From: a bacterium
GTDB lineage: Bacteria; Armatimonadota; Fimbriimonadia; Fimbriimonadales; Fimbriimonadaceae
Assembly (NCBI GenBank): GCA_013823945.1
Contig: PNMZ01000001.1
Coordinates: forward strand, 806,001-870,000
Reading direction: 5' to 3'
DNA: 64,000 nt
Part shown: one piece after another, positions 12,834-22,656 of the stretch
Position numbering within the stretch: the stretch's first letter is position 1
How the letters are laid out: every line of letters begins with the position of its first letter
Translations under genes and position numbers: made by a program
The notes under the pieces: model-generated
Database searches by the model: none
What the model was told of the DNA's origin: nothing
The model's input: the letters and a program-made list of their open reading frames with translations, nothing else

Positions 12834-13862
12834 ATGGTGAGCGGTATTCTTTCCGTTGACATGCGATTAACGCACCTAGTGAAATGCGCGGGTTGAGCGA
12901 GTAAATTGGGCCCGACCCAATTGGCGGAGGTTCTCCGCCAGCTTCCCCCTCAGACGCATCCCGATCTGCTGGTCGGCTTCGATACGAAGGATGATGCGGG
13001 GGTTATTCGTGTGCCGGGGCAACCCCATTTGGCGCTGATTCAGACTATGGATTTTTTCACTCCGGTGGTGGATGATCCTTACTCTTACGGAGCTATCGCG
13101 GCGGCGAATGCATTGAGTGATGTCTATGCTATGGGCGGTCAACCGCTGACCGTGATGAACATCTGTTGTTTTGATCCGAATGCGGCTCCAGCCGAGGTTT
13201 GGGCGAATGTGTTGCTGGGGATGGCAGAAAAATGTGCGGAAGCGGGGGCAATGATTGTTGGGGGACATTCGGTGGAAGATGACGAACCCAAATTTGGGTT
13301 GAGTGTTACAGGAACGGTGGCGGTGGATCGGGTTTTTGCGAACTCCAATGCTGTAGTTGGGGAGAAGATTTTTTTGAGCAAACCTTTAGGATCGGGCATT
13401 GCGACAACGGCAGCAAAGTTTGATAAGGCGACGTCAGAGCAGATTCAGTCGGCGATTGATGTGATGGCAAAGTTAAATTCCAAAGCGATGGAAGTTGCGC
13501 AGGAGGCAGATGTGCGGTGTGCGACAGACATTACCGGTTTTGGACTGGTTGGTCACTTATGGAACATAGCGCGAGCGAGTGGCGTGCGGATAGAAATTGA
13601 TGCAAACAGATTGCCCCTGCTCGAGGGGACTCAGAATTTGGTTGAGCGCGGATGCATCACCGGAGGTTCGCGAAAGAATCGGGATGCTCTGGGCGAGCAT
13701 TTGATTATTGACCAATCGGTTCCAAAGTGGCTCGTGGAGGTTGTGGTTGATCCGCAGACAAGTGGTGGCTTGGCGGTCACTACTCGGGCAGATGCGCTCG
13801 ACGGCTTTGTTGAGATCGGACGGGTGGTCCCCGGAGAACCGGGGATCGTTGTCCTGCCGTGA
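12834..13862 (+). CDS. selD: selenide, water dikinase (SelD), itself a selenoprotein with in-frame UGA
   Basis: SelD makes selenophosphate from selenide and ATP for selenocysteine and selenouridine synthesis. The frame from the ATG at 12834 reads through one TGA (12894-12896) and then into an unmistakable SelD: LLVGFDTKDDAGV, TMDFFTPVVDDPYSYGAIAAANALSDVYAMGG, GGHSVEDDEPKFGLSVTG and VVDPQTSGGL. Around the TGA the sequence is LTHLVKCAG-U-ASK. This is exactly the catalytic loop where other SelDs have Cys or Sec (position 21) followed by the essential Lys (24), so the TGA must encode selenocysteine. The start at 12834 is favoured by GAGGGA at 12820-12825 with 8-base spacing; a second ATG at 12861 is in frame but has no such site. 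About 342 residues, a normal length. It converges on the DUF885 gene. Confidence 0.92.
12904..12939 (+). promoter_or_regulatory. candidate bacterial SECIS stem-loops in selD
   Basis: Directly after the UGA are two stems: AATTGGG (12904-12910) pairing with CCCAATT (12916-12922) around a 5-base loop, then GGCGGAG/CTCCGCC (12923-12939) around GTT. The first loop begins 15 bases after the UGA, about the distance at which SelB reads bacterial SECIS elements. The exact SelB-contacting loop bases cannot be judged by eye. Confidence 0.55.
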
Positions 13863-16379: not shown

Positions 16380-17783
16380 ATGAGTACCCCCGCCCCTCCC
16401 CGCAATAACTTCATGACTGTCCTCCTGATGGGGATGATGCTCTTTTTGGGGATTCAGCTCATCATGGCTCCTCAGCAGGGAAGTCGCGATTCGCGATCGG
16501 CAGACGAAATCTGGGCGAAAATGCAAACGCTGAACCGGGAATTGAAAGATGTTTCGATTCAGCAAGAGCTAAGAATTTACGAAAGCAAGCTGAATGATGA
16601 AGCTGGGAAGAAGGGGATGTCCAAGGAAGAGTTGGACAAGCAGATTTTGCGTGCCCATTTGCTCGTCGCAGATACGATGTACAAAAGTGGTCTTTACCGG
16701 GGTCAGTTGTTTAAGAGTGGCGGTGTTGGTGAGGACTGGGCTTATCGAAAACTCGATAAGGCGTACACATTCATCAAGCCCAAATATGAAGCTTTTTATC
16801 GAACTCCCATTTGGGGTGCAACTTCGGTCGCGGTGAATCCGACAGCGAAAACTCCGGCGACAGAGCGCACGGCGAATGAGATTTATGATCAACTCGTCAT
16901 AGATTTGAGTCCGCTGGCAAAGGCCGAACCAGTCTTTGGCTTTATTCCGGGTTATCAGCTTATTGATGCTTTGGTTCAGCCGACGGGTGCGAATCCTGGT
17001 TTTAGTTACTGGTTTGCGGCCTTCTTATTGGCTTTAGTTGTCCGTGCGATTATTTGGCCGTTAGCTCAGAAGCAGATCATGCATGGTCGGCAGATGATGA
17101 AGCTTCAGCCTCGAATCAAGGAGATTCAGGAGAAGTACAAGGACAAGAAGTCCGGTCAGATTAAGGATCCTCAGGCAATGCAGATGGAGACCATGGCCAT
17201 CTACAAGGAGTACGGCTTGAACCCGTTTGCGGGATGTGGGCCGGCATTGGTGCAGATGCCTTTGTTCTTGGCGGTGTATCAGTCCATGCACCACTACAAG
17301 TTTGAGTTTACTAAGGGGACTTTCCTTTGGATAAACGAATCGAGCTACCGGTTTGCGGGGATTCCTTTGGCTCCGAATCTGGGTGAGCGGGATTATATTT
17401 TGGTGTTTTTCTATATGATCTCTATGATTGCGACGACGCTTTTGATGCCGGTGACCGACCCGAGTAATGTTCGTCAACAGCGGTTGATGGGCATTGGGAT
17501 TGCGGTTGTGTTCTCGGTGATGATGTTCTTTTACACTTTGCCATCGGCGTTTATTTTGTATTGGATTTTCACAAACGTATTATCGACGGCTCAATCGCTG
17601 CTGAGCTATCGATTACCGGTGCCTGAGCTTGTAAAAGTTCAGACAGTTGCCGGGGGCAAGGTGATTGACACTGATGCCAGCAAGAATGGTCGCAACGGTT
17701 CCGTTAATGGAGCTATTTCCCCCGACTTTTTTGGCAAGAAGGGCACACCGAAAGCAAATAAGCAGCGCAAGCGGAAGAGATGA
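16380..17783 (+). CDS. yidC: membrane protein insertase YidC/Oxa1
   Basis: A 467-residue polytopic protein that inserts and folds inner-membrane proteins with or without SecYEG. An N-terminal anchor (residues about 12-30) precedes a 160-residue periplasmic region, shorter than in E. coli. The Oxa1 core follows: SYWFAAFLLALVVRAIIWPL, KQIMHGRQMMKLQPRIKEIQ with the cytoplasmic coiled hairpin, NPFAGCGPALVQMPLFLAVY, and two further helices. The C-terminus is a basic tail (KKGTPKANKQRKRKR) of the kind that contacts ribosomes. It sits between yidD and khpB. Confidence 0.95.
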   Translation: MSTPAPPRNNFMTVLLMGMMLFLGIQLIMAPQQGSRDSRSADEIWAKMQTLNRELKDVSIQQELRIYESKLNDEAGKKGMSKEELDKQILRAHLLVADTMYKSGLYRGQLFKSGGVGEDWAYRKLDKAYTFIKPKYEAFYRTPIWGATSVAVNPTAKTPATERTANEIYDQLVIDLSPLAKAEPVFGFIPGYQLIDALVQPTGANPGFSYWFAAFLLALVVRAIIWPLAQKQIMHGRQMMKLQPRIKEIQEKYKDKKSGQIKDPQAMQMETMAIYKEYGLNPFAGCGPALVQMPLFLAVYQSMHHYKFEFTKGTFLWINESSYRFAGIPLAPNLGERDYILVFFYMISMIATTLLMPVTDPSNVRQQRLMGIGIAVVFSVMMFFYTLPSAFILYWIFTNVLSTAQSLLSYRLPVPELVKVQTVAGGKVIDTDASKNGRNGSVNGAISPDFFGKKGTPKANKQRKRKR

Positions 17784-20361: not shown

Positions 20362-20679
<318 letters not shown>

Positions 20680-20683
<4 letters not shown>

Positions 20684-22656
20684 TACTTTATGGTGAAGGG
20701 GACAACGGCTTTGAAGACCAGTCGGTCTGTGAATTGATCGGCACGGGGGTCGCCGATGAGAATGAAGTACTCAGCTCCTTTCTTTCCGCTCAGGCGATAG
20801 GAGAGGAACCAGTTGGACTTTCCGTTGAATGAGACGAGTCGTCCGCCGATTGATTCAAACTTTCCGATATCGTAGTTGAAGCTCAAGATGTGTTGAGTAT
20901 CTGTTTCCGTTGTTTCGACGATTTCGGTTGATCCGTTGAATTGAAGTCGGTTGAGAGGGCGATATCGCCAATTCAATTCGTATTGCTCGAATTGCTCACC
21001 TCGGAAGGTTCCGGTGTCGTAATTGAGTCCAACTTGGTTGTATGGGTTGTTGGTTGGGTAGGCCGCACCGATGCCAAGACCCCGGTCAAAGACTCCTTCA
21101 AATTGAGTTTGATTAATTCCTATTCCGACAGAGAGTCCGCTTCTCAGATTGACTCCGCCGTTGAGATTGATTTCGTTTCGATAGAAGTCACCACTGAATC
21201 GGTCGAAAGTGCTGAGGTTTGCGCTCATGTCGTAGCTATTAATTGATCCGCTTTTGGGTGTGACCTGATATGAACCGTACGCCGAATAGCCTTTAAGGTC
21301 GCGTTCCCGACTAAATCCAATTCGAGGGAGGAACTCGGGCGAAATTGAGACATATTCGGTTCCAGCATTTAGGTTTTTGTCTTCATATCTCAAGCCGATG
21401 TTGTTTCTCCATCCATTACCATCGATTTGATCGGCGGTGTATTGATTTATGGTGTAGTACTCGATGGAACCAGATCGGCCGAAGTAGTTCAAGAGGCCTG
21501 CAACGTTGTTTCGACCGGGTTGGGCGTTGTTGACCAGGCCAAAATCGAGCGATTCATTGTCATTCAATTGGTGTGAGAGCTTGAGGGCAGATGCTTGGCG
21601 ATTGCCAAAATCTATGGTGGTCAGGGCACCGATGTTAGTCTTGTCATCGAGTTCTCCATAGATATTGAGGCCAGTATCGAATGTAGGGATACGTTGGGGG
21701 GCGAAGAGTCGAGAATCAAAACCAAATCTGAGATATTCGGAGCCTTCTTGGAAGAACGGCCGATTTTCGTTAGCTAGTCGCTCAAAGAACGAGAAATCTA
21801 GCGAGAGGATAGAGTTTTCGACGTTACGAAAATCGGGGTTGACGGTTCCGACAAATTGGAGGGTTTCAGATAGATTGGTTTTGAAATCAAGTCCGGCGTT
21901 GGCGATTGGTCCAGATCCCTTTTCGACACCAAGGAAGGTGTAGGGAAGAAGGCTGATGGATCGGTCTCTGGGGATTGCTGGAATACTGACTTGTGACCAA
22001 ACAGGGATGAGCGATGAATCGTTGTTAATAAATCGGAAAGTGTAGGAATTTTGCTTGTTTGATCGGAACCAGCGCACATTGAATCGGAGGTCTCGAGTTC
22101 CTGCTGAGGGCAGATTCATGATGCTCCAGGGAATTTTCATTTCGGTTTCCCATCCGGAATCGGTCAATCTGCCGTTGGCTTCTATTTCTCCCAGCCATTC
22201 GGTTTTAGCGGCCCTTCCTCCAGAGAGGTTGATTGAGGTTGCTCCGTTTGAATTGGTGGAGAATGAATTGAAATTGTTGTTTGCTCCAAATGGGTCGAGC
22301 AGGAGGGTGAAGTTGTCATTTCCTCTAATATTTGAGTTAGGGCGATATTCTTGGCGGACGACACGGCGAGGGTCGGTTTTGACACGTCCGGCGAAGTAGA
22401 TAAATTTCTCATCGTAGGTCAGCCAGAATTCTGCGAATTCATCCGATGTGAGGTTGGTGTCAGCGTCCGAGAATCCTTGTCGGCGATTGGCTTCTGGGTA
22501 CTCGCCGTCATTGATCACTCCGTCGGCAATGGGAGGAGTTGTTGCGGCGATTCCAGGGACGGTGAAAGTCTGATCTTGGGGAACGGAAGGGGTTGCTTGT
22601 GCGTTACTGCAAATGAGAATTGCAGTCCAGGCGAGCGGCAGACAGAAGACTTTCAC
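20680..22656 (-). CDS. exported DUF5916 protein with CBM9-like N-terminus
   Basis: A 658-residue protein with a signal peptide (MKVFCLPLAWTAILICSNAQA). Residues about 38-235 resemble a carbohydrate-binding family 9-like domain (DGVINDGEYPEA, EFWLTYDEKFIYFAGRVK, SGWETEMKIPWSIM). The remainder matches DUF5916, rich in alternating beta strands (LQFVGTVNPDFRNVENSILSLDFSFFE, NENRPFFQEGSEYL) and ending in an aromatic strand (VPFTIKY), as outer-membrane barrels do. Probable outer-membrane protein; the ligand is unknown. Confidence 0.85.

Follow-up and report, generated by a model that had tools for sequence, protein, structure and literature searches.

The selD gene in the 64,000-nt stretch of DNA analyzed here (the window) almost certainly encodes a selenophosphate synthetase with selenocysteine (Sec) as its catalytic residue, and SelB would insert that residue at an in-frame UGA with the help of an mRNA hairpin downstream (Table 1). 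This reading, which had been proposed from the sequence alone, is supported by alignment of the catalytic loop, by the Sec machinery of the genome, by the lack of a second selD, and by the recurrence of the TGA in relatives.

The in-frame UGA and the catalytic loop of SelD

The selD reading frame, ...MRLTHLVKCAG(TGA)ASKLGPTQLAEVL..., remains open from the internal TGA to the terminator, as the sequence-only reading had stated, and the read-through protein scored 361 bits against the TIGR00476 selD model (cut-off 125), covering model positions 1-308 of 311. A plain ORF listing began the gene at TTG 12906 and left out the catalytic loop, an outcome that had been foreseen. The same reading placed the start at ATG 12834, which now appears less likely. 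The true start is probably ATG 12861, because the MRLTH sequence is kept in the genus and because two homologues (L020 and L021) have an in-frame stop and no in-frame start upstream of the MRLTH ATG, which forces their start to that codon. Relatives have no in-frame start at the place corresponding to ATG 12834.

Table 1. Features of selD and of a second putative selenoprotein gene (window positions unless a locus is named).
Feature	Position	Strand	Description	Basis
selD CDS	12861..13862	+	333 codons including Sec; stop TGA 13860-13862; alternative ATG upstream at 12834	TIGR00476 and conserved MRLTH start
In-frame UGA, predicted to be read as Sec	12894..12896	+		Aligns with E. coli SelD Cys17; recurs in relatives
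Catalytic-loop Lys codon (U-A-S-K), conserved	12903..12905	+		Alignment: E. coli GCGCK, Aquifex GCAAK
Auxiliary hairpin	12904..12922	+	Stem 12904-12910/12916-12922, loop 12911-12915, between UGA and SECIS	Pairing, synonymous covariation
Candidate bSECIS hairpin	12923..12939	+	Stem GGCGGA/TCCGCC, loop GGTTC (12929-12933), ~32 nt after UGA	Pairing, covariation, published criteria
TlpA/ResA-like putative Sec gene	TGA L133:1708-1710 (G000:C10:28390-28971)	-	WUSSC; hairpin GGAGCTCGGTGAGCTCC 14 nt past UGA	

When KCAGUASK was aligned with HGAGCGCK of E. coli and SSGCAAK of Aquifex, both from SelD proteins of known structure, the UGA fell on the catalytic Cys and the conserved Lys was the third residue after it, in agreement with the earlier placement of the UGA at the Cys/Sec site ahead of a Lys. 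The TGA is matched by a Cys codon (TGT or TGC) in homologues L022, L026, L211-L215, and L217-L224, and Cys occupies the position in those sense-codon relatives that were examined. Comparison with relatives indicates that a sequencing error does not account for the TGA, since the same codon recurs in independent relatives at 92% and 71% identity and in most SelD-bearing genomes of the order. Nor is UGA reassigned throughout the genome, because the terminator of selD is itself a TGA.

Selenocysteine machinery and distribution of Sec-SelD

A complete Sec pathway elsewhere in the genome had been predicted, and all of its parts were detected. The assembly (3.16 Mb, 19 contigs, 99.8% complete) contains one tRNA-Sec above the Rfam cut-off (73.2 bits; anticodon UCA by ARAGORN), one SelB (349.6 bits), and one SelA (433 bits), with the genes for these and selD scattered rather than sharing an operon. 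Only a single selD was found in the genome. Absence of tRNA-Sec or SelB from the genome, or close relatives combining a true stop at this codon with a second intact selD, had been named as observations that would speak against a Sec-containing SelD; neither occurred, and close relatives either keep the TGA or have Cys accompanied by a decayed hairpin. A short way upstream of the tRNA-Sec gene, on the opposite strand, sits an OsmC-like gene whose redox positions hold Cys (L001:1009-1458 and 1501-1595).

The nearest named relative, Armatimonadetes bacterium Uphvl-Ar1 (92% identity), has the TGA, as do two Fimbriimonadaceae MAGs at 71% identity, while a third at 68% has TGT. Across the order Fimbriimonadales, SelD exceeded the cut-off in 59 of 113 genomes, and selD carries the TGA in 54 of these 59 (in 3 of the 54, the TGA lies in an N-terminal piece that is detached from the rest of the match); the five without it are G008, G026, G044, G063, and G092. 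The tRNA-Sec gene was found in 58 genomes of the order, 57 of them among the 59 with SelD; the remaining one, G011, has an N-terminal selD fragment that carries the TGA. Among the 54 UGA-selD genomes, 53 have tRNA-Sec, the exception (G040) being 88% complete, and SelB was detected in 57 genomes of the order in nearly the same pattern as SelD and tRNA-Sec. G026, in which neither tRNA-Sec nor SelB was detected, has an orphan SelD that possibly serves another use of selenium.

It is conceivable in principle that selD is a pseudogene, or that an assembly error introduced a premature stop, with either the TTG 12906 product or nothing being made, and a standard ORF caller does yield a truncated ORF alone. 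We give this explanation practically no weight: apart from the TGA, selD is intact and conserved, the TGA is shared by nearly all SelD-bearing genomes of the order, and the genome has no other selD even though it retains selA, selB, and selC. The preferred reading remains a Sec-containing SelD.

At the phylum level, 141 of 291 genomes have a SelD match at E <= 1e-60, and the large majority of the 141 contain one TGA. Judged from these genes, the use of Sec, and specifically its presence in the selenium-activating enzyme, is common across Armatimonadota. Two selD genes are present in some members of the phylum (G204, G243, and G274; L174, L215, L216, and L179), with G243 having one Cys and one Sec version. 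A literature search that left out most subscription journals found no paper on the selenoproteins of Armatimonadota.

A candidate bSECIS hairpin downstream of the UGA

Folding of the region downstream of the UGA gave two adjacent hairpins, the second of which is the candidate bSECIS. Published criteria for such elements are a loop of 3-9 nt, a stem of 4-16 bp, a G in the first two loop positions, a spacing of 16-37 nt, and an MFE <= -7.5 (PMC13188914). The selD candidate falls within them, with a stem of 6-7 bp, a loop read as GGTTC or GTT, a spacing of 32-33 nt, and an MFE of -20.6 for the region. In selD of this genome taken alone the signal is modest, as 5.3% of synonymous recodings have a stem as long and 3.5% an MFE as low.

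Comparison among relatives gave a stronger signal. Across 29 distinct sequences from the order, 98.3% of cells in the bSECIS helix are paired, with changes on both sides at 4 of 6 pairs. The two helices together are 96.6% paired, against 88.7% in shuffles and less than 47% in slid versions, and their covariation score of 0.275 was reached in none of 500 shuffles (0.120 +/- 0.016). Third bases at fourfold-degenerate sites have a conservation of 0.74 in the hairpin region versus 0.48 in the rest of the gene. With related sequences treated as independent, these comparisons show selection acting on both hairpins. In most other Armatimonadota Sec-selD genes the register of the second hairpin is unchanged, and pair 33-41 (numbering starts at 0 with the U of UGA) is C-G instead of G-C.

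Hairpins that reach 6 bp or more and obey the rules for loop and spacing were found in 65 of 71 Sec-selD genes versus 4 of 15 Cys-selD genes (Fisher p=5e-7, with related sequences treated as independent); the remaining 6 Sec-selD genes have no hairpin of the tested form. This contrast bears on the idea that a near-cognate or suppressor tRNA inserts a standard amino acid at the UGA, which would also be expected to yield a full-length protein. Such readthrough seems highly improbable to us, given that the hairpin has bSECIS features and is mostly lost where Cys replaces Sec, that sense-codon relatives have Cys at the position, and that tRNA-Sec(UCA) and SelB accompany UGA-selD almost without exception. 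Insertion of Sec is the reading that we retain.

A covarying hairpin between the UGA and the bSECIS element

The auxiliary hairpin is 95.1% paired across the same 29 sequences. Within it, a Leu codon (TTG/CTG) and a Gln codon (CAA/CAG) covary at paired synonymous sites, the combinations being TA 7, CG 19, CA 6, and TG 0 (p=0.0005, not corrected for kinship). The protein sequence cannot explain this covariation, although shared descent could contribute to it. In genomes from outside the order a hairpin often occurs but pairs in a different register, and some Cys forms can fold one as well; we therefore regard the auxiliary hairpin as a conserved element of the order.

The role of this hairpin may be to compact the spacer or to pause the ribosome. 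It probably folds up the 32-nt gap and so sets SelB at the usual distance from the UGA, or else slows the ribosome. The SECIS of a TlpA-like gene in the same genome (see below) shares the GGU loop core of the selD element, lies at the usual spacing of 21 nt, and has no extra hairpin, an arrangement that fits spacer compaction, short of proof. We tentatively suggest, as a possibility that we ourselves consider doubtful, that Fimbriimonadales selD carries a bipartite Sec signal in which the spacer hairpin compacts the gap so that hairpin-bound SelB reaches the A site. If true, this would be a SECIS architecture without earlier description. A limited literature search found no published account of a covarying hairpin between UGA and SECIS, and this hairpin is the sole part of the selD finding that might be new.

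Other putative selenoproteins

Further in-frame-UGA genes had been suggested as a check, and one was found. Our census proceeded by families, with concatenated E. coli Cys homologues of selenoprotein families compared to the genome, and is incomplete. It yielded a gene for a TlpA/ResA-like lipoprotein with an in-frame TGA at WUSSC, adjoining a WCPYC paralogue. The TGA is at the same position in congeners G086, G087, and G091 (motif WUSSC or WUSTC), and G086 and G091 share the hairpin GGAGCTCGGTGAGCTCC unchanged with this genome, while G087 differs in the flanks alone (CGGAGCTCGGTGAGCTCCG). Cys paralogues do not have the hairpin. Among synonymous recodings, 0.9% had a stem as long, and 1 of 2000 had a fold as good. 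When the genus was searched with a covariance model built from the selD SECIS, good E-values were obtained at selD only, which means that the SECIS elements of other genes do not closely resemble that of selD.

SelD is known elsewhere as the single selenoprotein of a genome (PMC1794560), and a Sec system maintaining only itself would accord with the absence of TGA from all three molybdopterin oxidoreductases (PF00384), which removes selenium-dependent formate dehydrogenase as a candidate, and with the absence of any match to E. coli SelU (selenouridine synthase) in the genome. For the present genome we consider this very unlikely, as it is contradicted by the TlpA-like gene, whose TGA at the redox motif is followed by a strong hairpin here and in three congeners. 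No TGA-bearing TlpA-like match was found in congeners G088-G090, to which that contradiction does not extend. SelD is best read as one of at least two putative selenoproteins here.

Elsewhere in the order, other genera have a second TlpA-like group with an in-frame TGA, at FWUGPC (L148, L150, and L152-L155), and its downstream hairpins are weak in single-sequence folds. G008 has a Cys-SelD yet a TlpA-like gene of this group predicted to encode Sec, which would explain why it retains tRNA-Sec and SelB. In G092 (L042 and L146), of the same genus as the present genome, SelD and the TlpA-like protein both have Cys and the SECIS is decayed, with SelB and tRNA-Sec intact.

One OsmC-like match with an apparent internal TAA was rejected as a selenoprotein, its reading frame being that of an intact OsmC. 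In the window, a search for other in-frame TGA codons next to Cys gave no convincing further selenoprotein. Also in the window are a likely yidC (16380-17783) and, downstream of it, a class A RNase P RNA gene (20363-20686, + strand, 275.9 bits).

Relation to known systems and implications

Under the mechanism that we propose, SelB carrying Sec-tRNA(Sec) would bind the bSECIS hairpin of the selD mRNA and deliver Sec to the UGA. The product of SelD, selenophosphate, would be used by SelA to make more Sec-tRNA(Sec), and SelD would need its own product for its own synthesis.

Elements of the bSECIS type are best studied in the formate dehydrogenase genes of E. coli. The selD element shares with them a coding-region hairpin past the UGA, a G in the first two loop positions, a spacing within 16-37 nt, and a stable stem; it differs in an apical loop about 32 nt from the UGA and in the covarying second hairpin between the two. 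Thioredoxin-like selenoproteins with UxxC motifs are likewise already known. The TlpA/ResA-like protein described here, a PF00578 member with Sec predicted for the first Cys of CxxC, resembles them but has a lipoprotein-like N terminus and a WCPYC paralogue alongside, and a separate FWUGPC group exists in other genera.

This selD belongs to the known selenoprotein family Sec-SelD and is ordinary in kind. Among reference prokaryotes, 19% of detected SelD genes encode Sec, always at the same position of the catalytic loop (PMC4561486). The present gene has the enzyme family and the Sec position in common with the Sec-SelD/SPS2 family (bacterial Sec-SelD and eukaryotic SEPHS2), the differences being that Sec predominates within the present order and that an additional hairpin precedes the SECIS. 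Automatic annotation would shorten or miss SelD in most selenium-using Armatimonadota. With Sec and Cys versions of selD, and hairpins intact or decayed, in one genome set, these bacteria offer a natural series for following the retention and loss of SECIS elements, and the same series suits asking whether an intervening hairpin rescues UGA spacing.
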